Source of the DNA: a virus
Direction: 5' to 3' (one strand)
Virus record (IMG/VR): IMGVR_UViG_3300042883_000289
Coordinates: 1 to 31,771 of that record
DNA length: 31,771 nt
The notes under the pieces: model-generated
Database searches by the model: none
Told to the model about the DNA's origin: nothing
Seen by the model: the letters and a program-made list of their open reading frames with translations, nothing else
Position numbers and translations under genes: made by a program
Part shown: positions 4,155 through 31,718 of the stretch, piece by piece
Layout: every line of letters starts with the position of its first letter
Numbering within the stretch: the stretch's first letter is position 1

Positions 4155-5012
4155 CTAATGCTTGCGATGTTTGTCGCTGATGATCTTCGGCACTGTGTGG
4201 TTCCAATCAACGCGGTGGTGTAACCGCTTATGGGTCGTACCCATTAGTGAGACGGTTACTGATGATGGTTGCATCATTACTGTGTACATAGACTTCATAT
4301 AGGTTCCAGCGTCTAGGTACATCTCGGTCATACCGCCAGCGACCTTCTGTGTTGTCTGTACGTTTGTTTGTAGTGCGGTGGTGGTGAAGAACATATGTCC
4401 GCGCGCACCGTTCACGACATAGGTGTTCACGTCGTCGTTCATTCTTCCTACGAACTCCAGTGGTGGTTCTGTTCTTAGTAGCCATGTATTCATGCACTTA
4501 CGCAGTAGTGGCTTAGTAACAACACCTTCTATTCCGCCGATGTGGTCACCACCTTGGGACATTGCGAACGATGTGGCACCTGTATCTTCTAGGAAGTCAA
4601 TCATTGCTTCCATGATCTGGTCTAGAGATGTGGTGTCTTTCTTCCGCAGTTTGTTCTCTGATACCAGTCTGAAGAAGATCGCTGTGTAGTCATCGTCAAG
4701 TTGCATATGGTAATCAAGCCCTAACTCTTTAGCGATGAGGAAGGACTGGTTACGTGCGAACACTGTGGCGCGTCTGTCGGCTCTGGTGTCTGCAATGTCA
4801 AACAGTTCTCCTGCTTTGGCTTTGTCAAACTGGATTACTTTGTCGCCATACAGTCTGAAGTATTCGTCTGCGGTCTTATCTTCGTTATCAATGATGAGGT
4901 ACACATCACCTGTGTAGCCACATTCTTGTAGGCGTTGCAGTGTTAGTTGTTCGTGTGGTCTGCCGTGAGTTAAGATGAACATGGCGAACTTCTTGCCCTT
5001 GCTAGTTATCAT
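4155..5012 (-). CDS. TAGT-like DNA-base glycosyltransferase, about 285 aa
   Basis: Nucleotide-sugar glycosyltransferase of GT-A type. Numbered from ATG 5012: a first β-strand with FILTHGRP (about 12-19), a second strand VYLIID (about 37-42), the FARNQSFLIAKELG segment (about 85-98) that places the sugar-nucleotide site, and the metal-binding LDDD (about 105-108). Later, FVGRMNDDVNTYV carries a second acidic pair, and the C-terminus is His-rich (HKRLHHRVDWNHTVPKI). This layout matches TET-associated glycosyltransferases (TAGT), which decorate hydroxymethylated bases in phage DNA. The ParB-like gene directly upstream overlaps it by 11 nt. I chose ATG 5012 rather than 5084 because the first 24 residues of the longer form are low-complexity and overlap ParB. 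No TET, hydroxymethylase or DNA methylase is visible in the window, so the substrate is uncertain. Confidence 0.75.
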   Translation of the reverse strand: MITSKGKKFAMFILTHGRPHEQLTLQRLQECGYTGDVYLIIDNEDKTADEYFRLYGDKVIQFDKAKAGELFDIADTRADRRATVFARNQSFLIAKELGLDYHMQLDDDYTAIFFRLVSENKLRKKDTTSLDQIMEAMIDFLEDTGATSFAMSQGGDHIGGIEGVVTKPLLRKCMNTWLLRTEPPLEFVGRMNDDVNTYVVNGARGHMFFTTTALQTNVQTTQKVAGGMTEMYLDAGTYMKSMYTVMMQPSSVTVSLMGTTHKRLHHRVDWNHTVPKIISDKHRKH

Positions 5013-5778
5013 CGTTGTCCATGATGTCGTGGATTGTCTGGTTGAACTTGGCGTATCCGTTCGCGATGGCGTCGTCAGCGTCAATGATTACTAGCACTGA
5101 TTGTTCCATTAGTTGTTGGATCTCTTTTGTTTGGTGTGGGTAGAACTCTGCAATCTTTCCGTAGTTGAATCGTGCGTGTCTCCACGTTGCTGCTGTGAGG
5201 AAGTTCTTGACGTCTTGCGGTATGTCGGCTTGCTGTATCTCTTGGGTAAGTTTTTCGGCGCGAGTCATATCAACTAACTCATTAACGTGTGGTTCTTCTC
5301 CAACTATTTCGTATTGTGGGATCTTGACCTTCTGTGTAAACATAGATTCAGATGGTTCTATTCCTTCGTGCGCTAAGTCCTGAAGGATTCTGTCTAGGTC
5401 GTCACCGTCGTATCCGCTACCGATGAAGCCAAGATCAGATGTGGCGAGTTCTTTTAGTAGGTCTGCCAGTGCGTTGTCGTCGTAGGTGGCGAGATCGTTG
5501 GTGCGGTTGTCGGCTAGAAGGATACGCAGTGCGCGGTCATCGTCACAGTCCACGAACGTTGCTGCGATCTCTTTCCAGCCAAGTGCTTTTGCTGCTTTGA
5601 GTGTGTGGTTCCCTGCTAAGACGTGACCTGACGAACGTTGCACAACGATTGGTCTGTACTGTCCGTTGTCTTTTAACGATTCGCTGATGGCACCGATGTC
5701 TCCCTGTCGCACGTTGCGTGGGTGATTCTTAACCGAACCTATTGCGATGGCGTTGTGCGCCAGTTCTTCTCTGATCAT
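5002..5778 (-). CDS. ParB-like nuclease-domain protein, 258 aa
   Basis: Residues about 10-110 form a ParB/sulfiredoxin-type domain: NHPRNVRQGDIGAISESL, then GQYRPIVVQ, then VLAGNHTLKAAKALGW, then LADNRTNDLATYD. The C-terminal part (residues about 145-245) has the pattern FLTAATWRHARFNYGKIAEF and LMEQSVLVIIDADDAIANG, which I associate with ParB-like proteins found beside DNA-modifying enzymes rather than with partition systems. No ParA is present, so plasmid-like partitioning is unlikely. Its overlap with the glycosyltransferase suggests a functional pair, perhaps DNA targeting or sensing of modified bases. The start has GAAGGAG about 6 nt upstream. Confidence 0.85.
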   Translation of the reverse strand: MIREELAHNAIAIGSVKNHPRNVRQGDIGAISESLKDNGQYRPIVVQRSSGHVLAGNHTLKAAKALGWKEIAATFVDCDDDRALRILLADNRTNDLATYDDNALADLLKELATSDLGFIGSGYDGDDLDRILQDLAHEGIEPSESMFTQKVKIPQYEIVGEEPHVNELVDMTRAEKLTQEIQQADIPQDVKNFLTAATWRHARFNYGKIAEFYPHQTKEIQQLMEQSVLVIIDADDAIANGYAKFNQTIHDIMDNDDN

Positions 5779-6474: not shown

Positions 6475-6687
6475 TCAGAGTTCTATTCCCTGTTGTAAGT
6501 GTATCCGTAAGCGGTCTGCCTGTGCGGTTAGATCTCTGTTCCGTTGTTCTAGGTATTGAGTGCGCTCAATAATAGATATCAATTCGGTAGATGCTTTATC
6601 AAGTCGCTCACGCAGTTCTTCATTAGCAACGCACAGTGAATCAATACGTTCTTCAAGCAACTCTATGTGGGTGGCTTCTTGTTCCAT
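6475..6687 (-). CDS. Coiled-coil protein, 70 aa
   Basis: Almost entirely a predicted coiled coil with regular leucines (HIELLEERIDSLCVANEELR then YLEQRNRDLTAQADRLR). Start ATG 6687 lies within the end of the previous gene (25-nt overlap), with AAGGA 9 nt upstream. Followed after 13 nt by ssb. Unknown function; probably an oligomeric accessory protein. Confidence 0.7.
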   Translation of the reverse strand: MEQEATHIELLEERIDSLCVANEELRERLDKASTELISIIERTQYLEQRNRDLTAQADRLRIHLQQGIEL

Positions 6688-8908: not shown

Positions 8909-9181
8909 CTACTTGCTTTCCGTGAATACGTAATCAAGCATTTGCTGGAATGAATTTTTACGTTCAATCGTTCTAATCATTTCGTCATAGACACTTCCGA
9001 TTCCGTTGATGTTTGAATCAACATAATTCGCTGTGCCTGTGTCGTTGAGTCTTACTAAAGCAGCGGTTGCTTTTTCAATAAGATTGTCTAGGTGATTCTT
9101 GATCTGCACGTTTGCTAGCAGCACTGCGCGTTCGGTCATATGACGGTTGTTGTCTATGAATGTTTCAATATCTGACTTCAT
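8909..9181 (-). CDS. Hypothetical helical protein, 90 aa
   Basis: First gene of the operon that starts at the 9.2-kb promoter, with GAGAAGGAAAACC just before its ATG. All-helical appearance (MKSDIETFIDNNRHMTERAV and NHLDNLIEKATAALVRLND), then a Gly/Asn-rich turn and a final helix. No family recognised. As the promoter-proximal gene it should be among the most strongly expressed of its unit. Confidence 0.75.
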   Translation of the reverse strand: MKSDIETFIDNNRHMTERAVLLANVQIKNHLDNLIEKATAALVRLNDTGTANYVDSNINGIGSVYDEMIRTIERKNSFQQMLDYVFTESK

Positions 9182-9200
9182 GGTTTTCCTTCTCTAAGTC

Positions 9201-9254
9201 TCGGTTCCTTACTCCCGATGTATTCATCATATACCTAATAGCGACCTATTGCCA
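9201..9254 (-). promoter_or_regulatory. Promoter with palindromic box and 5' leader hairpin (9.2 kb)
   Basis: Minus-strand reading: TGGCAATAGGTCGCTATT (9254-9237; inner AATAG-N4-CTATT palindrome), 5 nt, -10 TATGAT (9231-9226), exactly 6 nt, then ATCGGGAGTAAGGAACCGA (9219-9201). The last element can fold into a short hairpin and would begin at about +1. TTAGGTA (9238-9232) lies in the spacer. The arrangement matches 15.2 kb position for position. It drives the 90-aa gene at 9181 and the operon downstream. Promoter function is inferred from alignment and the actinobacterial TAnnnT -10 consensus. Confidence 0.65.
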
Positions 9255-9266
9255 GTCTTTCTTTTT

Positions 9267-9285
9267 ACCCTTACCAGATAAGGGT
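9267..9285. terminator. Hairpin between Rpf gene and 9.2-kb promoter
   Basis: Perfect 7-bp inverted repeat ACCCTTA / TAAGGGT with a 5-nt loop, 48 nt after the Rpf stop and just upstream of the next promoter. There is no U-tract in the minus-strand transcript (A-rich instead), so it would be a tail-less terminator or an mRNA 3'-end stabiliser, both reported in actinobacteria. Function is inferred. Confidence 0.35.
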
Positions 9286-9333
9286 TTGACTAATAGGTTC
9301 GCTGGCTGGCTCTAGGAACGCGCCGAACTCCCA

Positions 9334-9813
9334 TCAGCCTGCTTTATACGGACTGCCCGACTCGTGCAGGGAGAACGCCACAGAACGGGCAATGCGCCTC
9401 TTTACGAGCCTCACAGGGCGAGCGCAATCCAAAGCACCCCAACCACCTAAGCCGACAGGGAACACAAAGCGACCATTACGGTGCGTGAATCCCCAGAGCG
9501 CAATCCGATTAGCAACCACGATCTGTTCCTGTTTCGTTGCGTAATGCGGTGCGCGAGCGAACTGACGACCACCGAACGCAATCCAAGTAGAGCGCGCGAT
9601 GCCTAGACCACCAGACCAGTTGCCACCGTTCTTCCAATCGGAATGTGTTTCACAATGTGCAAGACGATCTATGAACTTAATTGATAGTTCATACTTACGA
9701 CGTTCAGACATTCTTGGAAGTTCCTGCGTGTGTGCGTAAGCAGTAGATGGCGGAAACATTAAGCCAATAAATAATAGTGATGTGATGAATAGTTTTCGCA
9801 AAGGTAATTCCAA
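9334..9813 (-). CDS. Secreted Rpf-like transglycosylase, 159 aa
   Basis: Resuscitation-promoting-factor-type lytic transglycosylase that cleaves peptidoglycan glycan strands. N-terminal Sec signal peptide: basic start (LRK), hydrophobic core (LFITSLLFIGLMF) and AYA cleavage site near residues 25-27. The Rpf domain follows: FIDRLAHCETHSDWKNGGNW with catalytic Glu about residue 55, then SGGLGIARSTWIAFGG and QEQIVVANRIALWG. C54 and C130 could form the Rpf disulfide. The start is a TTG directly after the TGA of the replication gene, which is weak but coupled. Unusually, it sits at the end of the replication operon instead of beside the endolysin, and it is exported during infection rather than held for lysis. 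Confidence 0.85.
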   Translation of the reverse strand: MELPLRKLFITSLLFIGLMFPPSTAYAHTQELPRMSERRKYELSIKFIDRLAHCETHSDWKNGGNWSGGLGIARSTWIAFGGRQFARAPHYATKQEQIVVANRIALWGFTHRNGRFVFPVGLGGWGALDCARPVRLVKRRIARSVAFSLHESGSPYKAG

Positions 9814-10581
9814 TCATTGGCGCGCGCGTATCTCGTCATAGATCTTCTTGCAAGGTTCAATCACTCGCGGTTCAAAGAGACTTATGATGTCTAGACATTC
9901 TTCCCAAGACTTACGTTGATGCGCGAACGGAACAACACGGTCAAGAGCCTCATCTAGATGCAAGTCCTTCCGAACTTGCGTAGTCGTACATTCTTCAGTG
10001 TCATCTTCCCACCGACCTTGACGAAGCCAAGTAGCAGGGTGGGCGATGTACTTCTTGTCTATCTCAGTCTTGGCGTACTTGTCAACTGCTATTAGTAATG
10101 TGTCTAACGACGGTGCATTTGGTTTAAGCATCACGGATAGGAAAACATTTCTTGCTGCAACCTTCGCAACACGTCGCGGATATTTATTCCAAAACAGGTC
10201 AAACGATGATGAAAGATCCTTTGACGGTTCCTTACGGTTCTTATATAGATACAAGTGTTCAACGTTAGGGGTTTGTTGATCGCTAGTTTCCCCTTTCTCA
10301 CTTTCCCCTTTCTGAGTTATACCTTTATTGAGTTGATAGATCGTGCGATTACCACGCCCGTTTCCCTTCTCAATTATTTCTAACAAGCCATCTTTAATCA
10401 TCTGCCTAACAGAAGCACTTACCCACGTTTCTGTTGTGCGCGCTTTTAGTGCAAGAGTTTTCTGCGAAGGAAAGCAACTGCCTTCATCATTCGCGAAGTC
10501 TGCTAACGCAAGATGCAACAACAAACGTCTGCCCTCATACGGTGATGATTCCCAAACGAAACTTATCCAGCGAACACTCAC
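9814..10581 (-). CDS. Replication initiator-like protein with N-terminal winged helix, 255 aa
   Basis: The N-terminal region (residues about 20-85) is a helix_turn_helix_36 type domain as in phage/plasmid replication proteins: LHLALADFANDEGSCFPSQK, then a wing after KDGLLEIIEKGNGRGNRTIY. A polar linker follows. The C-terminal part contains FDLFWNKYPRRVAKVAARNV and IAHPATWLRQGRWED, a pattern common in phage replisome organisers (DnaD-like context). It probably marks the origin and recruits host helicase, since no phage helicase or polymerase is encoded. Start GTG 10581 overlaps the previous stop (GTGA). Confidence 0.8.
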   Translation of the reverse strand: MSVRWISFVWESSPYEGRRLLLHLALADFANDEGSCFPSQKTLALKARTTETWVSASVRQMIKDGLLEIIEKGNGRGNRTIYQLNKGITQKGESEKGETSDQQTPNVEHLYLYKNRKEPSKDLSSSFDLFWNKYPRRVAKVAARNVFLSVMLKPNAPSLDTLLIAVDKYAKTEIDKKYIAHPATWLRQGRWEDDTEECTTTQVRKDLHLDEALDRVVPFAHQRKSWEECLDIISLFEPRVIEPCKKIYDEIRARQ

Positions 10582-11045
10582 AGTTCTCCTTCTTCATTTA
10601 TCAATCTCAACAGCGCACCTAACGTAGATAGGCGACCCACGATCAAACCATCAGTTGTGTCGTCTGGCATGGCAACCATTACGAACGGTCTTGGATCTCC
10701 GATTGCGCGCCCCTGTTCGCTCTGTTGTTCCGCGAGTAAGTACCTTGTCCACATCGGTGCAATCTGTTTCCCTGCTTTTACTTCTACACGAAACGCACCA
10801 CCCCAATGTTCTTCGTGTCGTGTGTTAGCACCTGCGATACCAAGTGTCTGTCGTGCGCGTCGTGCTTTCGCATCTCCTTTCGCGCGGTTACGTTTCCCAC
10901 GCGCAACAGGATCGCCACAACCAGCGACACGACGTTTGCCATCACGACCTTCTCTGCCTAACGTTCCGAATAACGGACAACTCTTGTTGCTGCACTTTTC
11001 CTTATTGCCTTCACATTCGGCTTTCGGTTTCAAGTTGCTAGTCAT
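10578..11045 (-). CDS. Putative PD-(D/E)XK nuclease / resolvase-like protein, 155 aa
   Basis: The N-terminus has four Cys in CEGNKEKCSNKSC plus CGDP, a likely zinc-binding knot. A very basic stretch follows (RGKRNRAKGDAKARRARQTL), then HWGGAFRVEVKAGKQIAP, where E-V-K matches the ExK core of PD-(D/E)XK nucleases, and a final αβ segment (PFVMVAMPDDTTDGLIVGRL). Holliday-junction resolvase-like enzymes occupy this position in many actinophages. An upstream acidic residue of the motif is not certain, so the call is moderate. Start ATG 11045 is preferred over the longer lysine-rich extension to 11078. Confidence 0.5.
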   Translation of the reverse strand: MTSNLKPKAECEGNKEKCSNKSCPLFGTLGREGRDGKRRVAGCGDPVARGKRNRAKGDAKARRARQTLGIAGANTRHEEHWGGAFRVEVKAGKQIAPMWTRYLLAEQQSEQGRAIGDPRPFVMVAMPDDTTDGLIVGRLSTLGALLRLINEEGEL

Positions 11046-11253
11046 ATTCTTCTCCTTCTTCTTCTTCCATCTCTGCACAGGGACACTGCACAGATTCCAA
11101 ACGTATCAACCTAAAACACAAATCAGCGAACACCTCAGTTGTCATAAGTATCTCAATGTTGGCGTGTGTTTCTTTTAGACCAACTGCCACCATCATTTCC
11201 TCAATGCTGCGCGGTGACAACATACGCGTCTTACCTTGCTTCCACTCAAACAC
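11038..11253 (-). CDS. Hypothetical protein, 71 aa
   Basis: GTG 11253 overlaps the end of the WhiB-like gene by 8 nt, with GAAGGA about 9 nt upstream; its end overlaps the nuclease-like gene by 8 nt. Middle segment is helical (SPRSIEEMMVAVGLKETHAN) and the tail is strongly acidic (AEMEEEEGEEYD) with CPC just before it. No recognised family; co-expression with whiB suggests a regulatory or replication accessory role. Confidence 0.65.
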   Translation of the reverse strand: MFEWKQGKTRMLSPRSIEEMMVAVGLKETHANIEILMTTEVFADLCFRLIRLESVQCPCAEMEEEEGEEYD

Positions 11254-11500
11254 TTTTCCACTTCCTTCTCTCGCTGCGTATCAGGTTGCGTTCGTTCGGT
11301 GTATGCCCTGCGTACATTCCCCAACGATCTTCTAGATCTTCCCATTGTAGTGCGAACTCTAAACACTCTTGCTGAACAGGGCATTGGTTACACATCACAC
11401 GTGCGCGTGTCCAAACCTTTTCGCTTTGTGCGTACTCAGGGAAAAAGATTCGTGAATCAGCACCGACACAAATAGCAAGCCTGCGCCATTCGTCAATCAA
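11246..11500 (-). CDS. whiB: WhiB-like Fe-S transcription factor, about 84 aa
   Basis: WhiB-like proteins bind a [4Fe-4S] cluster through four Cys and act with the primary sigma factor; they are confined to actinobacteria and their phages. Cluster ligands visible: C11 (AICVGADSRIFFP), C37 and C40 (VMCNQCP), C46 (QQECLEFAL), i.e. C-Xn-CxxC-X5-C. The turn RWGMYAGHTPNERN (canonical GxWGG-like) and a basic C-terminus (RSERRKWKSV) follow. I prefer TTG 11500, which has GAAGG about 9 nt upstream; TTG 11533 in frame gives 95 aa. Phage WhiB proteins are known to interfere with host WhiB2 in mycobacteriophage TM4. It may control the TTAGGTA-associated promoters described here, which is untested. Confidence 0.93.
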   Translation of the reverse strand: MIDEWRRLAICVGADSRIFFPEYAQSEKVWTRARVMCNQCPVQQECLEFALQWEDLEDRWGMYAGHTPNERNLIRSERRKWKSV

Positions 11501-11846
11501 ACTGCTTACCTTCAATGATATAAGTCTCACCAAGTGCGGTTATCTCACACACCTGCTGTTGCTGTCCGAAGGAACTTGTGCGTGTTTCGCCCGTTGGTAC
11601 AATGAATTCTAGTTTCCGTAGTTCGCTGCAACGTTTCCAGTAGCACACACGCTGATCAAACATCGTTGTCTCCTTCCATCGTGTATCCATTCCTGCTTCT
11701 TCATCGGTTAAACCTGCATTGGTGTAGTACGTCCACAGCAAACGATCTCGCTGTGAACCTTTCTTTACGAACGCGTCACGGTTCAACTGTGATGTTGCAG
11801 GATCGGAACGACGCGCTGCTGTGAATAGTCCTAGTTGCTCGCTCAT
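11493..11846 (-). CDS. Winged-helix DNA-binding-like protein, 117 aa
   Basis: Begins QLGLFTAARRSDPATSQLNR, a signature often seen at the N-terminus of phage winged-helix proteins, then RDRLLWTYYTNAGLTDEEAG and RVCYWKRCSELRKLEFIVPT forming the helix-turn-helix and wing, and ends with ITALGETYII. Likely DNA-binding or regulatory. ATGA overlap with the upstream gene; its end overlaps the start of whiB by 8 nt, so the two putative regulators are translationally coupled. Confidence 0.65.
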   Translation of the reverse strand: MSEQLGLFTAARRSDPATSQLNRDAFVKKGSQRDRLLWTYYTNAGLTDEEAGMDTRWKETTMFDQRVCYWKRCSELRKLEFIVPTGETRTSSFGQQQQVCEITALGETYIIEGKQFD

Positions 11847-12052
11847 TCTGTTACTACCAATCCAAGTTTTGTTTCCTTAACGTCTAGCACTGTGATCTCA
11901 GGTTCATTACTAATCATGTTAAGAATCACATCAAGCGCAGTCGCGGTGTATTCGTTACCGAACGTTGTTGAGTAATTCGGTATAGCCACAACCATCGTGA
12001 CCTTGTATAGATGACTGTCAGAGATCTCTACTGCGTTTGCTATTTCACTCAT
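11843..12052 (-). CDS. Hypothetical protein, 69 aa
   Basis: ATGA overlaps with both neighbours (annealase upstream, wHTH downstream). β-rich composition (SHLYKVTMVVAIPNYSTTF then EITVLDVKETKLGLVV). No recognised family; its location suggests a recombination accessory protein. Confidence 0.65.
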   Translation of the reverse strand: MSEIANAVEISDSHLYKVTMVVAIPNYSTTFGNEYTATALDVILNMISNEPEITVLDVKETKLGLVVTE

Positions 12053-12609
12053 TCGCTTTCCTCACTCTCTGTTTTCTCGCGGATCATTGCAGCAATTAGC
12101 AACGTTGCCTCAGCCTTAGTTATTTCATCAACAGATGTAATGTCCCTACCAAGTTTCTCCTTTGCGTACGGAACAAACTTCTTGTTTAGTTTTAAGTCAA
12201 TAACAAGTTTGCCTAACGTTCCACGTTGTGCGTCAGACATTAGATCCGAAGAATTATTTACCACCACGTTTGTAGTTGTAGTCGTAGTGCGTTGCGCTTT
12301 CTGCATCTCCTCACGTGACGGGCGTTTCTTCATCGCGTAATTTGCGTTTGCAAGTCCGCGTCCAATTGCGCTGGTCTCTGCATTTTCCACGAACGATGTC
12401 CGATTCACAGGTGACGCATCGCGGACTTCTTCTGCGAAGCCAGTTGATACAAGATCACCGCCACGTTCAAAGTAGATGTATGCCTTGAACACGATGATGT
12501 TGTCCTCACGATGTGCAATCTCTGTTATGACCGCACCATCAGGGTGATCACTCCAGAACTGTGTTAGTCGTTCTTCCACTGTCGCGTATTGCGATAAGTC
12601 AAACTTCAT
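12049..12609 (-). CDS. Erf-like single-strand annealing protein, 186 aa
   Basis: Partner of the YqaJ exonuclease immediately upstream, forming a two-component phage recombination system in which the exonuclease resects ends and the annealase pairs complementary strands. The conserved core is present: TVEERLTQFWSDHPDGAVIT, the β-strands IIVFKAYIYFERGG, STGFAEE and the ERF-type VENAETSAIGRGLANANY. A Thr/Asn/Val linker (TTTTTTNVVVNN) separates a C-terminal helical domain (DLMSDAQRGTLGKLVIDLKL) resembling the small ssDNA-annealase C-terminal modules. ATGA junctions on both sides. Family assignment (Erf versus a related superfamily) is not certain. Confidence 0.72.
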   Translation of the reverse strand: MKFDLSQYATVEERLTQFWSDHPDGAVITEIAHREDNIIVFKAYIYFERGGDLVSTGFAEEVRDASPVNRTSFVENAETSAIGRGLANANYAMKKRPSREEMQKAQRTTTTTTNVVVNNSSDLMSDAQRGTLGKLVIDLKLNKKFVPYAKEKLGRDITSVDEITKAEATLLIAAMIREKTESEESE

Positions 12610-13553
12610 TTTGTTTCCTTCTTTCCTTTTATCCGCATCACACGATACGGAAACCCATCACGCTCAAACTGCGTAACTACTTCTGGATACTCGCTGCGTA
12701 GCGCAACTAGATCCAATGACTTCTTGCCTGCTTGTTGTTTCCAAGAAACTACCTGCACACCATTGATTAAACCAATTTCATTCGTTAGTAGGTGACGTGC
12801 AATCTCGTCGCGCGCAACCTTCTCTGCTTCTTCTGCTTCCTTCTTGATTCGCTTTGCTTCTTGTAACGCCTCTATGACCTTCATCATTTCGCTTGGTAGT
12901 TCTACTGACGTAGGTTCTGCGCGGACAAGTGTTGCTATCTGTTCCGCAGTGAAGTCGTTAATGAAGTCTGTAATGCCTGTGCCGTTATCTATCGCAGTGC
13001 AGAACATCTCTGCTTCACTTAGTAGCGCATCAATGGCGTGTTCGTTTCTTTCTAGTTCTACCACTGCCAAGTTCTGACGCGCATCAAGAACAGAGAAGAA
13101 CACAGGAACGTTTAACACCGCCATCTGTGACCAGCCCTGCCACCGCCACTCAATCGGGAGATCGTCAGACGACGCAATTGTGTATCGCGTTGTTGTCTTA
13201 CATTCAATCTGTACCGTTGGTGACTGTTCGTTATCAACTGCGTCGCTGTTTATGTTCCACCTGCCTGACCGATACATCACCTCTGGTGTGTGTAGAGAGA
13301 TCTTCAAGATGCGTTCAGCCTCAGTTACTAGCGGTGCCTCTAGAACGTTGCCACGATGGAACGCCATGTTGAAGCCACCTACTACTGGTGTAGTTACTTT
13401 GTCGTGGTATAGATCGCCACGAGACTTAAAAGGTGAATCGTTCATCAACGCTGGTGCATCACTGCCACCAAGAATTGCTTTGCCGTTCTCATCTTTCTGT
13501 CTGCCGTGTAGCCATTCAATGCTTCCGTGTTTTGGTTTGGGTATTAGTTTCAT
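12606..13553 (-). CDS. YqaJ-type recombination exonuclease, 315 aa
   Basis: λ-exonuclease superfamily (YqaJ domain). N-terminal GSIEWLHGRQKDENGKAILG then GGSDAPALMNDSPFKSRGDL is the typical start with the invariant GGSD/GAS motif. The FHRGNVLEAPL segment carries catalytic Glu about residue 72. D104 (NSDAVD) and E117-x-K119 (QIECKT) complete the PD-(D/E)XK site, and WRWQGWSQMAVLNV follows as in the family. The C-terminal third is helical (EALQEAKRIKKEAEEAEKVA). Start overlaps the previous gene (ATGA), and it is coupled to the annealase by ATGA. Confidence 0.9.
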   Translation of the reverse strand: MKLIPKPKHGSIEWLHGRQKDENGKAILGGSDAPALMNDSPFKSRGDLYHDKVTTPVVGGFNMAFHRGNVLEAPLVTEAERILKISLHTPEVMYRSGRWNINSDAVDNEQSPTVQIECKTTTRYTIASSDDLPIEWRWQGWSQMAVLNVPVFFSVLDARQNLAVVELERNEHAIDALLSEAEMFCTAIDNGTGITDFINDFTAEQIATLVRAEPTSVELPSEMMKVIEALQEAKRIKKEAEEAEKVARDEIARHLLTNEIGLINGVQVVSWKQQAGKKSLDLVALRSEYPEVVTQFERDGFPYRVMRIKGKKETK

Positions 13554-13864
13554 TTCCTGAACTTCCTTATTGAGAATTTGCTTGGGGACTTTTTATTGAC
13601 TGTTGATTCGTAGAGCGATAACCATTCATCGCAGATAGTAAAACCGTTTGCATCTACTGGATAGGCAGCGATTCTTAGAACGCTTCGTGTGTCGTCGTCA
13701 AAGACATAGACGTTGATATCAGCAAAGGTTTCTTCATCAAGTGCGAAGGCAGTCCACCAATCATCATCGTCTTTATCTAGGTTGTGTTTGTCACCGATGT
13801 TTTTTGCGAACGCGCGTAGCACGTCTTCATACTGTGTAAGTGTTTCTATGGTTGATGCTTTCAT
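13550..13864 (-). CDS. Hypothetical acidic protein, 104 aa
   Basis: Strongly acidic middle (HNLDKDDDDWWTAFALDEET), β-rich (INVYVFDDDTRSVLRIAAYP), with a basic C-terminal tail (SPSKFSIRKFRK). Coupled by ATGA to the exonuclease gene. The acidic, DNA-mimic-like composition could indicate an inhibitor of a DNA-binding host protein, which is speculation. Confidence 0.7.
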   Translation of the reverse strand: MKASTIETLTQYEDVLRAFAKNIGDKHNLDKDDDDWWTAFALDEETFADINVYVFDDDTRSVLRIAAYPVDANGFTICDEWLSLYESTVNKKSPSKFSIRKFRK

Positions 13865-14031
13865 TCTGATCTCTTTGTAATAGATGGGTGTGTCACTTCT
13901 ATGAACGTTCGGAAGTCCCGAAGGGAAACGACGAACTGTTCACCTGTCTGGCGGTTCCGTATTTCCGCGAATAGATCGCGCAACATAAGTACGTCAAACA
14001 ATGCAGCGTGGTTTGGTAGGCGCACGATCAT
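13861..14031 (-). CDS. Hypothetical protein, 56 aa
   Basis: Read from the minus strand. ATG 14031 shares one base with the stop of the upstream gene (TGATG), and TGA 13863-13861 overlaps the next ATG. Protein: MIVRLPNHAALFDVLMLRDL then FAEIRNRQTGEQFVVSLRDF and a short tail. FAEIRNRQTGEQFVVSLRDF suggests a small β-hairpin/SH3-like fold. It fills the gap between two clear genes. Function unknown. Confidence 0.7.
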   Translation of the reverse strand: MIVRLPNHAALFDVLMLRDLFAEIRNRQTGEQFVVSLRDFRTFIEVTHPSITKRSE

Positions 14032-14213
14032 CAGGTTCTCACGATCTCGTAGTTGTGTAACGCAGTAAAGACTTCCTCAACATCGTCAATGTCTATGCCG
14101 CGTCGTTTCTTCATTAACGTCAGCGCGTCATAAAGATTGTCTGCGATGTTCCGCCACTGATTGCGTTCCGCAATCACATCTTCTAGGTAGTCCCTCATTA
14201 CTTCTTCGTTCAT
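14031..14213 (-). CDS. Hypothetical helical protein, 60 aa
   Basis: Acidic N-terminal helix (NEEVMRDYLEDVIAERNQWR) then NLYDALTLMKKRRGIDIDDV. Its ATG lies within the last codons of the 59-aa gene (4-nt overlap), and its stop forms TGATG with the next gene. Pattern resembles small phage proteins with a single helix-loop-helix; no specific family recognised. Confidence 0.7.
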   Translation of the reverse strand: MNEEVMRDYLEDVIAERNQWRNIADNLYDALTLMKKRRGIDIDDVEEVFTALHNYEIVRT

Positions 14214-14389
14214 AGCATCGCTGCTTTCACCGCAGTCTCAAAGCGATCACGATCAAAGCGTGGATTGTCTTGCTGCATTGCTCTGCACATTAAACTAACG
14301 ATCTGCCAAGCAACAACGGTGTCACCGTCGTTCTCTCCCAAGATCCTTCCGATGTCTTTGGCTAACTCTGTGTATGTTTTCTTTGTCAT
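14210..14389 (-). CDS. Hypothetical protein, 59 aa, first gene of recombination operon
   Basis: Translated by eye. ATG 14389 is preceded by GAGAAGGAAACA, a strong ribosome-binding site, and is the first start after the 14.4-kb promoter. Helical protein (MTKKTYTELAKDIGRILGEN then VVAWQIVSLMCRAMQQ and RDRFETAVKAAML). It ends ATGA into the next gene. Function unknown. Confidence 0.75.
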   Translation of the reverse strand: MTKKTYTELAKDIGRILGENDGDTVVAWQIVSLMCRAMQQDNPRFDRDRFETAVKAAML

Positions 14390-14409
14390 TGTTTCCTTCT
14401 CTCTTTTCC

Positions 14410-14441
14410 ATCGGTTCCTTACTCCCGATAGTTAGACCTTA
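14410..14441 (-). promoter_or_regulatory. Promoter with conserved 5' leader hairpin (14.4 kb)
   Basis: -10 TAAGGT (14441-14436), exactly 6 nt, then ATCGGGAGTAAGGAACCGAT (14429-14410), a 5-bp ATCGG/CCGAT stem with a 10-nt loop GAGTAAGGAA. The same element in the same register occurs near 9.2 and 15.2 kb. The region upstream lacks the good AATAG-N4-CTATT palindrome but has an inverted repeat with TTAGGTA at 14479-14502. It serves the operon from 14389 down to the Rpf gene. Confidence 0.6.
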
Positions 14442-14478
14442 GTTTGTAGGTGTCGCCCTGTTAGGCATTCTCTGTTTA

Positions 14479-14502
14479 GTTGTTAAGCGTGTACCTAACA
14501 AC
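14479..14502. promoter_or_regulatory. Inverted repeat containing TTAGGTA, upstream of 14.4-kb promoter
   Basis: GTTGTTA (14479-14485) and TAACAAC (14496-14502) are perfect 7-bp arms around a 10-nt centre that includes the TTAGGTA heptamer on the minus strand (14498-14492). It directly follows the SprT-like gene. Could be an operator or the end hairpin of the preceding transcript. No U-tract follows. Confidence 0.35.
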
Positions 14503-14508
14503 GCGGTG

Positions 14509-15216
14509 TTAGTTATTTATGTCGCGTGTTGGCAGTACCCAATCTATGTGTTGTTCGGCTTGACCTTGAATAATGTAATCCACTGAATATCCCCACGTGC
14601 TTACTTTCGCAAATGAGATCTGGCACTTCCAACGTTGTTGCCATACGTCGCGCAAGCAATGATAGAACTCTCGTGAGTGAACATCACGCGCGCCATTGTC
14701 CTTACGCTTCGGCGGTACTGCGCAGTGGGCTAACTCGTGCGCTAACACTTCCCACACTCTCCTGCTTCTGTTCACGCTCTGATCGGGATCTACATTAACT
14801 TGAATATGATTAGCGCGACTAAGCGCGTGACCGTATTGCTTGCCACGATTCTGTGCGCGAACAATATCAATTGACGGAAGTGCTTTGCCGTTGTGATACG
14901 GCTGCATTAGTTTCCATATCTTCTCTGCTTCCTTGTGAATCATCTTCGCGCGCTGTGCATCAATGCGTTGCTGTTCTTTCTTCGGTGCAACTTTCTTTGC
15001 AACTGTTGCGCGCTTTGCTGTTGCGCGTTTCGTTGCTACAACTTTCTTGACTGCGCGTTTCTTTTCTAACGACGGTGCAACGCGGTGTACTAACTTGCCT
15101 GTGTCTGCTGAACACGGTAAGCAGTAACGACGTACATCATTCATTCGTGGTCGCGATGGCGCGAGTAATCCGCTGTCACAGATCTCACATTTCCATCTGA
15201 CGTTCTTCGTAGCCAT
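14509..15216 (-). CDS. SprT-like zinc metalloprotease with zinc ribbon and histone-H1-like linker, about 235 aa
   Basis: Three parts. Residues about 8-37: a zinc ribbon with C10, C13, C32 and C35 (KCEICDSG ... RYCLPCSAD). Residues about 52-81: a Lys/Ala/Val/Thr-rich basic segment of histone H1/AlgP type (KRAVKKVV, ATKRATAKRATVAKK). The C-terminal SprT-like peptidase has helix VWEVLAHELAHCAVPP with HExxH at about 160-164 and a third ligand near H180 (DVHSREFYHCL). SprT/Spartan proteases digest proteins crosslinked to DNA. The basic linker would tether the enzyme to DNA. ATG 15216 is preferred over the ATG at 15237 because AGAAGGAG precedes it. It is a one-gene transcription unit between the 15.2-kb and 14.4-kb promoters. 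Confidence 0.82.
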   Translation of the reverse strand: MATKNVRWKCEICDSGLLAPSRPRMNDVRRYCLPCSADTGKLVHRVAPSLEKKRAVKKVVATKRATAKRATVAKKVAPKKEQQRIDAQRAKMIHKEAEKIWKLMQPYHNGKALPSIDIVRAQNRGKQYGHALSRANHIQVNVDPDQSVNRSRRVWEVLAHELAHCAVPPKRKDNGARDVHSREFYHCLRDVWQQRWKCQISFAKVSTWGYSVDYIIQGQAEQHIDWVLPTRDINN

Positions 15217-15235
15217 AATTTCTCCTTCTCTTAGC

Positions 15236-15289
15236 ATCGGTTCCTTACGCCGATAACTACATCATAGCATGAATAGGTACCTATTCCCA
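15236..15289 (-). promoter_or_regulatory. Promoter with perfect 14-bp palindrome and 5' leader hairpin (15.2 kb)
   Basis: Minus-strand reading: TGGGAATAGGTACCTATT (15289-15272) with perfect palindrome AATAGGTACCTATT, 5 nt, -10 TATGAT (15266-15261), exactly 6 nt, ATCGGCGTAAGGAACCGAT (15254-15236; 5-bp ATCGG/CCGAT stem). It aligns with the 9.2-kb promoter without gaps up to the hairpin loop, which is 1 nt shorter here. TTAGGTA also occurs just upstream (15300-15294). It drives the SprT-like gene. The palindrome covers the -35/spacer region, so binding there would most simply repress. Confidence 0.7.
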
Positions 15290-15427: not shown

Positions 15428-15709
15428 TCAACGCGACACAAGCGCGCCATCAACTATCTCAAACACAACAGCACTCATACGCTTCACCATGCAAACAGGA
15501 ATGTGCATAACGTTGTCAATCATTTCTTCCTGACGATCCCACGACTGAACAATCGTAATGTGATCAGCCTTGCCACCATCACTTGCTGCAATAAGAAAAC
15601 CAACAGTGCGCACAATGCGCTCACCTTCAGTATCAATATCACCGATGTGTGTCCACTGCGTAGATGATTGATGCGCATCAGCCCACTCAACAACAACGAT
15701 GGTATCCAT
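15428..15709 (-). CDS. Conserved small phage protein, 93 aa
   Basis: Pattern typical of a widespread phage hypothetical family: VVVEWADAHQSSTQWTHIGD, RTVGFLIAASDGGKADHITI, then VMHIPVCMVKRM. The predicted fold is a small β-barrel. ATG 15709 forms TGATG with the metallophosphoesterase stop, so they are translated together. Function unknown; about 130 nt of non-coding sequence follow to the 15.2-kb promoter. Confidence 0.7.
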   Translation of the reverse strand: MDTIVVVEWADAHQSSTQWTHIGDIDTEGERIVRTVGFLIAASDGGKADHITIVQSWDRQEEMIDNVMHIPVCMVKRMSAVVFEIVDGALVSR

Positions 15710-16788
15710 CACCAACCTTCTTTCTTTCTATCCATACAAAACACAGGTGCTTGAAACGTGATGTTCTTCTCTGGCGTAATCAAAGCCAACGCCTGCTGTG
15801 GTTGTTCAAAACCAAAACCCATCAACATCGCATACTCGTCGTATCCCTTCATAGATCCGTTCACAACCATTGAAGGTGTACTGATGTACTGATGCCAATG
15901 TCCAAGCCACATAGTCTTGAACGTCTTACCAGTTTGCAAATACCTTCCTTCTTTGCGCGCGCGCATACGCATGATTGGTGGATAGATACCACCGATGCCA
16001 CCGCCACCAGAAACTTGATCGCCATGTGTAATAAGATGACCGTGTTCATAGATCTTGATAAGTGCATCTGCACTTTCGGGAATAGAAAATGTAACGCGTT
16101 TGTCTTTAGTGAATTGACGTTCAACCATCTTCGCTACCAACCAGTCATAGTTCGTTCTCACGCGCTGCTTCATACGTGGCTTGCGTGTAGTCCGCCCGTG
16201 ATTACCAACAACCGATACAACGTGGCATCGTTTGAACTCGTTGGCTAGAAGTTCCACAACTCCAGAGATCTGTTCAGACCAGAACAGCAACGACCCAATC
16301 ATCGTGTCCTCATTAGTCAAAGAAAGTTCCTCGTGAATATCACCAGTAAAAATATCGCCACCAAGAATAAGAACAACACCGTCATAGGTAACGCCTGAAA
16401 GATAATGCCGAGCAAGTTTGACGACGTTCTGTGCCCAACGTTCTAACCGCATCACCGCGATCTCACGACTGTAAGCGTTTAAGCCTTCCATCTCAGAAGG
16501 ATCTACAACCTCATCAAAGTGTGTATCGGAAAGCATCACGACAAGAGTGCCTGCGGACTTCTTCGGTGACGCTGGAGAAAGCCAATGCGGAACAGTGAAG
16601 GTCTGAGCCTCTGCTGTTTCAACAATGCTAAGGGATCGTTCAATCAGTTCTAACTTGTCAGTCAGTTTAATGTTCTGAATAGATAAAGCATCACGCTGCT
16701 TCCTTACCTTGATGAGTTCAAGTTTCTCGCCAAGTTCTATTTCTTCGTTAATGTCATCTTCAAGGGACACGTTGTCCGTCCAATCCAT
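15709..16788 (-). CDS. Calcineurin-like metallophosphoesterase, 359 aa
   Basis: Dinuclear-metal phosphoesterase. Five family motifs are visible: LSDTHFDE (D88, H90), GGDIF (D145), GNHGR (N196, H197), THGD (H255) and GHWHQ (H297, H299). The first 70 residues form a charged coiled coil (EELGEKLELIKVRKQRDA-like), an N-terminal extension that may mediate oligomerisation. Phage enzymes of this type include DNA or nucleotide phosphatases/nucleases; the substrate cannot be told from sequence. It follows and overlaps a small HTH protein by 29 nt, an arrangement suggesting a DNA-related role. Confidence 0.88.
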   Translation of the reverse strand: MDWTDNVSLEDDINEEIELGEKLELIKVRKQRDALSIQNIKLTDKLELIERSLSIVETAEAQTFTVPHWLSPASPKKSAGTLVVMLSDTHFDEVVDPSEMEGLNAYSREIAVMRLERWAQNVVKLARHYLSGVTYDGVVLILGGDIFTGDIHEELSLTNEDTMIGSLLFWSEQISGVVELLANEFKRCHVVSVVGNHGRTTRKPRMKQRVRTNYDWLVAKMVERQFTKDKRVTFSIPESADALIKIYEHGHLITHGDQVSGGGGIGGIYPPIMRMRARKEGRYLQTGKTFKTMWLGHWHQYISTPSMVVNGSMKGYDEYAMLMGFGFEQPQQALALITPEKNITFQAPVFCMDRKKEGW

Positions 16789-29975: not shown

Positions 29976-31718
29976 CTATTTGTGGCGAGCAATTTCAATC
30001 TGGCGTTTGCGCAGACTGAGTGTGTTCGTCGCAATGATGGTAGCAACATCTTGTTTTGCGCGCAACTCTGCAACGGTACTTTCGTATGCAGGGAAGGTAA
30101 CTACTGAAACATCAAACAATTGCACTTCGCGTAGTTCGCGTGTGCGACGATCATCTGACCAGTTATCTTTGACGGTACGGAATGCGAAACTCATTTGGCT
30201 AATGTCGCCACGACGTAGGGCAGAGATTAAACGCGCAGCATCAGGATTCATTGGGTCAAGATCCGATTCAACAAGAAGTCCACGATCATCTTCAGTAAGG
30301 ACAAGTGTGCCTGACTTGGTACGCGCTAGTGGTACACCTTCGTGATCTATGAGCAAGCGAACATCTGCACCGTCGTTAAGTGTTTTTGTAAATGCCCCAC
30401 GACGTACAAACTCTGTGAATGGTAGTGGTTCCGATGGTGAGTCAAACACTGCTGCATATCCAATAAGTTTCGTGCCATCTTCCGATGCGCGAACTTCCAT
30501 GTTGGAGAAAGCCACACGACGTGTTTCGGTTTCGTCACGCACTACCCAATTGATTGTATTTGTTTCGGTCATAGTATTGCGAATGTTATCAAATGAACTT
30601 GGTGCTGTGCGACTATCTGAGAACTTTGGGTGTCCACTATTTAAGAGATCGTTGTCTTGTTTGTAGTTCGGATTCTCTGGCTTGCCTTTTTCAGATAGGT
30701 AAAGGAACGCATTGACTCTTGCCATAGCCCATTGAGCACGTGTCATGTTTGGTCTGTGAGAAGTAGAGAACGCACCTGCACCGCGTCGCCATACGGAACG
30801 TAAAGAACCAACACCAACCCGTGTCCAGTCAGGTCGTGCTTCTTCTTTCATTCTTGCATTGTGTTCTGATGCTTTGGTTTGCAAACTTTTCTCTACGGCA
30901 TCGCCAAGTTCAATCTTTCCTTCTTTGTCCGATGCTGATCCTGATGGATTCTTTTCTGAGCCAAAGATCTGATCTTTCTTAGGTGCAGGTGCGCGTTGTT
31001 CTTCTAATTGCCCAACGACACGTTCTGCGTATTCCATTGCTCGTGTTGCTTCACTCTTTGTTGTTCCCGATCCCCAAAGCAAGTGCGCAACCATACCTGC
31101 GGTGATGTCTCCTTCTTTGACACCTTCTGCTTCTAGATCAACCATGTGTCGGGCAATCCAAGGTGCTATCTTCCGCCACTTTGCTTCAGTAACATTTCCT
31201 GTTGCCATTGCTCGCGCATCTTCAACGGTTTGTGGTTTCAGACCATCACCTGACAATCCTTCTTCGTGGTACTTCAAACCACGCTTAGCGTTTGCGCGCA
31301 TGAACTGAGGTGCGGAAAGATTGACCGCGCGATCTTCTTCATATTCTTCTTCATCTTCTTCTTCATCTTCGTATGGTTGCCAAGCATTACAATAGAACGC
31401 ACCATCAACATATTCATTCCATCTTGTGCAATATGCTTTCGTTCCTGTTTCGTCTTGGTTGCTTTCGTCGTAGTAAGCACAGTTGCCACACGCTCTGCCT
31501 TCGGGAACGTCATCAGCAAGTGCAGGTCTGTAATTACTAGGTAGTGCGCGCACTTCACCAATCGGTTCAATATCTTCGGTAATTGATGCAGCAACCATAT
31601 TGTCTATTGCATCTTGCTTAGAAACATGACAGCCAATAGTTTCGTAACCATTCTGTACTTGTTTAACAGTTGCCCAACCATTACAGTCAGATTGATTCTG
31701 TGATATCCCGTATGGCAT
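29976..31718 (-). CDS. Multidomain prohead protease (S78 family) with N-terminal Cys module, 580 aa
   Basis: C-terminal residues about 385-560 are an HK97-type prohead protease: KLIGYAAVFDSPSEPLPFTE, LLIDHEGVPLARTKSG (H459) and GDISQMSFAF (nucleophile S510), ending with VQLFDVSVVTFPAYEST. Upstream are other modules. Residues 10-45 (CNGWATVKQ ... GCHVSKQDAIDNM) are a motif shared by phage head proteins. C77, C80, C97 and C110 in a CxxC-x16-C-x12-CxW pattern resemble HiPIP-like Fe-S sites. An acidic run lies at 117-129. Residues about 150-245 hold GDGLKPQTVEDARAMATG and AGMVAHLLWGSGTTKSEATR; 295-360 hold SVWRRGAGAFSTSHRPNMTR. Internal ATG 30572 could yield the 198-aa protease alone. Such fused architectures occur in actinophages; module roles are unknown. 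Confidence 0.88.
   Translation of the reverse strand: MPYGISQNQSDCNGWATVKQVQNGYETIGCHVSKQDAIDNMVAASITEDIEPIGEVRALPSNYRPALADDVPEGRACGNCAYYDESNQDETGTKAYCTRWNEYVDGAFYCNAWQPYEDEEEDEEEYEEDRAVNLSAPQFMRANAKRGLKYHEEGLSGDGLKPQTVEDARAMATGNVTEAKWRKIAPWIARHMVDLEAEGVKEGDITAGMVAHLLWGSGTTKSEATRAMEYAERVVGQLEEQRAPAPKKDQIFGSEKNPSGSASDKEGKIELGDAVEKSLQTKASEHNARMKEEARPDWTRVGVGSLRSVWRRGAGAFSTSHRPNMTRAQWAMARVNAFLYLSEKGKPENPNYKQDNDLLNSGHPKFSDSRTAPSSFDNIRNTMTETNTINWVVRDETETRRVAFSNMEVRASEDGTKLIGYAAVFDSPSEPLPFTEFVRRGAFTKTLNDGADVRLLIDHEGVPLARTKSGTLVLTEDDRGLLVESDLDPMNPDAARLISALRRGDISQMSFAFRTVKDNWSDDRRTRELREVQLFDVSVVTFPAYESTVAELRAKQDVATIIATNTLSLRKRQIEIARHK

Follow-up and report, generated by a model that had tools for sequence, protein, structure and literature searches.

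Hairpins with compensatory stem changes at the predicted transcript starts of several promoters in an uncultured phage lineage

Why would a phage carry nearly the same small hairpin at one fixed distance behind the -10 elements of three operons? This question was raised by an earlier note on the freshwater-type, uncultured phage record IMGVR_UViG_3300042883_000289 of IMG/VR (31,771 bases, 45.8% G+C; the whole stretch was analysed and is called the window here). The note pointed to three minus-strand sites, designated A, B and C, each with a -10 element followed at exactly 6 nucleotides (nt) by an ATCGG/CCGA(T) hairpin, with the loop 1 nt shorter at C. All of these features were found. The shared layout was TANNNT, exactly 6 nt, and then ATCGG-[3-nt or 2-nt]TAAGGAA-CCGA(T), the loop measuring 9 nt at C and 10 nt at the other two sites. 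In dozens of related phages the hairpin was kept with different but still-pairing letters; there is strong support for a hairpin that is conserved at the predicted start of the transcript and whose stem has undergone compensatory changes. These observations suggest that the hairpin is a built-in cap, serving either to protect the message or to help it to be translated.

A composite pattern of this layout matched A and B, and its shorter-loop version matched C; neither matched in 100 dinucleotide-preserving shuffles of the window. The elements of the three sites, and the gene that served to find distant relatives, are as follows.

9226-9231, minus strand: -10 element TATGAT of promoter A (L034 and L035 carry TACGCT at this place)
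9200-9219, minus strand: hairpin A, ATCGG GAGTAAGGAA CCGAG, predicted to start at +1 (pattern scan)
9187-9192, minus strand: Shine-Dalgarno (SD) sequence GAAGGA of the 90-amino-acid (aa) gene of operon A (from sequence)
8909-9181, minus strand: first gene of operon A, 90 aa, without a match in family searches
14436-14441, minus strand: -10 element TAAGGT of promoter B (pattern scan)
14410-14429, minus strand: hairpin B, ATCGG GAGTAAGGAA CCGAT, 5 base pairs (bp), predicted to be 5'-terminal (folding z -2.55)
14394-14399, minus strand: SD sequence GAAGGA of the 59-aa gene of operon B (from sequence)
14210-14389, minus strand: first gene of operon B, 59 aa, without a family match; RecE-like exonuclease and replication genes come next
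15261-15266, minus strand: -10 element TATGAT of promoter C (pattern scan)
15236-15254, minus strand: hairpin C, ATCGG CGTAAGGAA CCGAT, 5 bp, 9-nt loop, predicted to be 5'-terminal (pattern scan)
15223-15228, minus strand: SD sequence GAAGGA of the SprT-like gene (from sequence)
14509-15216, minus strand: SprT-like gene, first of operon C, ATG at 15214-15216 (Pfam SprT-like, 24.7 bits, just below the cut-off)
15709-16788, minus strand: exonuclease gene upstream of promoter C (phrog_284, E 3e-45), synteny anchor for 80 relatives

The stem proposed for all three sites was complete at B and C; at A the outermost pair was broken (ATCGG/CCGAG, an A.G mismatch) and 4 bp were left. Each first gene did have its own ribosome-binding site, as had been claimed, although not 20-25 nt downstream: the SD sequence GAAGGA was 7-10 nt 3' of the hairpin, and what followed AAGGA of the loop by 24-26 nt was the start codon, the distance from hairpin end to ATG being ~19-21 nt. 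On folding energy alone the window hairpins are weak, and the case therefore rests on comparison. No Rfam family was matched at gathering score in the window and four relatives. A fourth candidate from scanning, at 6492 on the minus strand, was rejected as the coding C-terminus of the preceding gene, which is conserved as protein.

Among close relatives, L007, L008 and L009, found by a RecE-like protein search, carried the element at the same places as the window with varying -10 letters and spacers, and L019/L035 carried it at place A. The gene after the leader at place A was different in the window, L009 and L035, and in L034 too another gene followed this leader, which therefore does not depend on any particular gene. 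Contig L036 had three copies at the same three places with the stems CGCGG/CCGCG, CCGG/CCGG and CCGG/CCGG and with TAAGGAACC unchanged. Across the window clade the fourth stem pair counted from the loop was T-A, G-C or C-G, and UAAGGAA with the closing CC was invariant in 11 of 11 sites, L036 included. Since the stems of L036 changed and the loop was kept, the loop is constrained and the stem is maintained by compensating changes. Stem changes in this clade were read by eye, as MAFFT alignments misaligned at the loop. In two other searches, matches of an exact 16-mer scan of viral contigs were coding coincidences only, and those of a gapped ATCGG..TAAGGAACCGA scan were mostly coding, L019 and the known relatives being genuine.

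With the exonuclease adjoining site C as query, 80 contigs were obtained, most of them ~76% identical in that protein. Distant WhiB-encoding phages kept the -10/hairpin geometry with other stems and other loops, for example, TATGGGG-aaata-CCCCATA, TATCGGGC-aaca-GCCCGATA and TGTTGGTG-aaaa-CACCAACA. As a key feature, the AAGGA loop is specific to the window clade, where it is strict, since the loops of distant relatives are A-rich and lack AAGGA. In 213 non-redundant leaders, perfect stems started 0, 1, 2, 3 and 4 nt after TANNNT in 3, 5, 5, 4 and 6 cases, 5, 6, 7 and 8 nt after it in 26, 33, 32 and 19 cases, and at each distance of 9-21 nt in 0-2 cases; a start 5-8 nt after the -10 element places the hairpin at the predicted +1. 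A syntenic set was chosen blind to hairpins by taking, from every contig, the gene that directly follows the exonuclease; among its 39 non-redundant leaders that have a -10 element, 26 showed a strong stem (mean of 5.5 and maximum of 12 in 200 shuffles). Similarly, in an independent contig set collected with the 17-mer AGTTCAAGAGGAGGACT as sole criterion (68 new sites, chosen blind to pairing), 25 sites had the geometry, compared with a shuffle mean of 0.48 and maximum of 2, and with 1-2 sites at other spacings. The conserved hairpin at the predicted 5' end and the compensatory changes which the note had proposed to look for were both strongly supported by these relatives, with the stem conserved where the promoters were conserved.

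The hairpin also followed the promoter. In relatives where the SprT-like gene was first in its operon, it had both promoter and hairpin; where another gene had been inserted in front, only the SD region was left in the SprT leader, and the new first gene carried the hairpin. Judging from these orthologues, the hairpin goes with the promoter and not with the gene. Consistent with this, only 2 of 53 hairpin leaders were within 25 nt of the preceding gene, vs 53 of 148 other leaders (p 1e-6). Geometry, conservation of pairing over sequence, and attachment to promoters are therefore established at the level of sequence comparison.

Pairing could be conserved in RNA or in a DNA palindrome. In 20 distinct hairpins, whose rows were partly chosen by pairing, 97% of cells were paired and 21 double-sided changes were present; this was reached by 0 of 500 shuffles and was not approached by the slid control. 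Single contigs (L082, L104, L111 and L169) often held two or three stems that differed from one another, as did their loops. Pairing rather than sequence was thus conserved, as seen from both compensatory changes and different stems in one genome. Single internal mismatches were G-U in seven cases and A-C in two, small numbers that are only suggestive. Covarying stems, unlike stems in one genome and G-U pairs together argue for an RNA structure rather than an operator.

We consider it fairly probable that the element is a 5'-terminal, mRNA-stabilizing stem-loop, as for ompA and mycobacterial gyr; of the functions listed in the earlier note (mRNA protection, translation timing and protein binding), mRNA protection was judged the best. 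The RNA stem-loop would form from about the first transcript nucleotide, its start being fixed relative to the -10 element because the latter sets the transcription start. The stem would leave no free single-stranded 5' end, so that 5'-end-dependent decay (pyrophosphate removal, RNase E/J entry) might be slowed and phage operon mRNAs might be longer-lived. In the window clade, the UAAGGAA loop may in addition hold 30S at the 5' end in a STAB-SD-like manner, with translation starting at the separate downstream SD. The gyrase mRNA of M. smegmatis is protected by a stem-loop at its 5' end (PMC2358910), and the ompA mRNA of E. coli is stabilized by one (Emory 1992, cited in PMC7509114). Like these, the phage hairpin is located at the extreme, here predicted, 5' end, tolerates sequence change and is followed by an SD, and gyr is likewise actinobacterial. 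In contrast to these single host genes, the phage element recurs at several promoters and across a lineage, with its position fixed by the -10 element; in addition, stabilization is established for ompA and gyr and is predicted for the phage hairpins. Several observations weigh against a stabilizing stem-loop. No clear hairpin was present at 13 of 39 syntenic promoters, the +1 was derived from the -10 box, the window stems are weak (4-5 bp) with two of three leaders folding no better than shuffles, and stabilization alone leaves the strict UAAGGAA loop of the window clade unexplained. Single mRNA-protecting 5'-terminal hairpins have been known for decades. In full-text searches for such leaders in phages or actinophages, we found no published description of a virus lineage with such a covarying-stem hairpin at several promoters, which is weak evidence of novelty as subscription journals were outside the full-text coverage.

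The strict loop could instead point to the ribosome: UAAGGAA, as a standby or STAB-SD site, would bring 30S to the 5' end and thereby raise translation from the downstream SD, and the main task of the stem would be to present the loop. We regard this as rather unlikely, although it would account for a loop that stayed invariant even when the stem changed in L036, and AAGGA is able to pair with the 16S tail. STAB-SD was reportedly described for cryIIIA by Agaisse and Lereclus in 1996. As with STAB-SD and polypurine stabilizers, the window clade, and only this clade, has an SD-like sequence in the 5' untranslated region near the 5' end, distinct from the initiating SD. Here, unlike in STAB-SD, this sequence forms part of a hairpin loop at the predicted 5' terminus, and in distant relatives the hairpin occurs with loops that are not SD-like. 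A 5'-proximal SD-like or polypurine sequence stabilizes Bacillus mRNAs and mycobacterial katG mRNA (PMC2358910), and distant relatives do show an SD in a hairpin loop (see below). However, their 5' hairpins have loops such as AAATA, AAAC and CAATA that are unable to pair with 16S. Besides, the nearby ATG after the loop (in CCGATG) was missing or out of frame at most sites; the loop is therefore not a second start signal, and a leader-peptide reading was rejected for the same reason.

The SD-in-loop hairpin is a second element. Most distant relatives had the SD in the loop of a small hairpin of the form xxxTC-AAGAGGA-GGyyy, present at many genes (L036-L115, L125-L211), including genes inside operons. 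Its three outer pairs covaried, with 72, 68 and 60 of 74 paired (shuffle maxima 53, 52 and 40), and its covariation score was reached by 0 of 500 shuffles. The window clade lacks this hairpin and has the SD-like loop in the first hairpin instead. It is possible, and we propose it only tentatively, that the lineage uses a two-part code, in which a 5' structural cap at operon messages and an SD-in-loop hairpin at many gene starts would together sustain the life and translation of phage mRNA during the decay of host mRNA, the two being merged in the window clade into one hairpin with an SD-like loop. A fused 5' and SD hairpin was also observed in L097 (~3925), L077 (~8624) and L095 (~3297), with the order TAGAAT, 6 nt, ATGAC-AAGAGGAG-GTCAT and ATG.

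The second hairpin also bears on the start-associated sequences (SAS) of cluster K mycobacteriophages, to which the window element had been compared. SAS have a fixed sequence, GGG-ATAGGAG-CCC, and precede the start codon by 3-7 bp, while the ESAS repeats of cluster K were reported without base-pairing support (PMC3203893); SAS are also treated in PMC12699233. The two systems share repeated short elements at non-structural actinophage operons, and SAS have outer symmetry around an SD-like core. This layout resembles the second hairpin of distant relatives, for example, AGTTC-AAGAGGA-GGACT a few nt before ATG. In contrast, the window element is located at the predicted +1, ~25 nt from the start, and has a covarying stem, and the 13-bp SAS consensus GGGATAGGAGCCC had no match in the window at up to 2 mismatches and one chance match at 3. 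The comparison thus needs amending, as the SAS-like part is the second hairpin, which the window lacks. The covarying SD-in-loop hairpin nevertheless offers a base-pairing model for these unexplained mycobacteriophage sequences.

Phage RNA elements at operon starts include lambda nut/boxB and HK022 put, and the hairpin might similarly be bound by an RNA-binding protein of phage or host, or act on RNA polymerase at the 5' end of the operon transcript as an antitermination element of the nut/put kind. The strict loop of the window clade, the position of small hairpins close to operon promoters (as with nut/put near the start of early transcripts) and a 5 bp/5 nt format that is boxB-like are consistent with such a role. 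We nevertheless find it quite improbable: stems and loops vary within single genomes (the four contigs named above), so that no single protein could read most members by sequence, and, unlike nut/put, no protein-reading loop is conserved across the family. No boxA-like partner turned up, though no search for one was made, and the Rfam result was negative as noted.

Inverted repeats at promoters are often operators, and covarying arms by themselves would also fit shifting specificity of a dimer. However, we consider it very unlikely that a dimeric phage regulator has its operator across +1. The hairpins of the window and relatives did not show one half-site at a fixed spacing; several unlike palindromes with loops of 4-10 nt occurred in one genome, for which a single operator protein is insufficient and an RNA stem suffices. 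Furthermore, the loop differed by 1 nt between sites and had one fixed orientation, and a DNA site predicts equal numbers of G-U and A-C mismatches rather than 7 to 2, small as these counts are. A better operator candidate is the separate AATAGGTACCTATT at -35. Recent duplication of a promoter cassette with a functionless hairpin would explain the 18 identical bases common to A and B but is hardly credible, as flanks are unrelated, the -10 element and 6-nt spacer vary between copies, and relatives keep pairing over diverged sequence, covariation that contradicts it.

The inverted repeats at about -35 are AATAGGTACCTATT at 15272-15285 (promoter C) and AATAGGTCGCTATT at 9237-9250 (promoter A), both on the minus strand, and ATAGGCACCTATT occupies this place in relatives. 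They are likely an operator or activator site common to these promoters and separate from the hairpin.

With regard to hosts, a WhiB regulator gene is located at 11285-11488 of the window, and WhiB was present in 14 of 14 searched contigs of its phage group. As WhiB is taken as an actinophage mark (PMC10202952), the hosts are almost certainly actinobacteria, a placement to phylum only. The closest named phage by terminase, Pontimonas phage phiPsal1, had no such hairpin leaders. Both freshwater actinobacteria and the phages that infect them are very abundant, and since phages of 'Ca. Planktophila' were cultured in 2023 (PMC10202952), the hairpin idea is testable by transcript mapping. One 4.2-kb contig, L117 (RFVF01000189.1), was in a Proteobacteria-labelled metagenome-assembled genome and encoded a phage exonuclease 61% identical; it is probably a misbinned actinophage contig and is uninformative on host.

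The minus strand of the window codes for portal, terminase, protease, capsid, tail, replication and recombination genes. Because the portal (1-1515) and head protease (29976-31718) are at opposite ends on the same strand, the record, classed as linear, may be a circularly permuted near-complete genome. In addition, a protein at 4155-5084 (minus strand) strongly matched phrog_842, a family of phage glucosyltransferases whose substrate is modified DNA, which suggests that the phage DNA is glycosylated.

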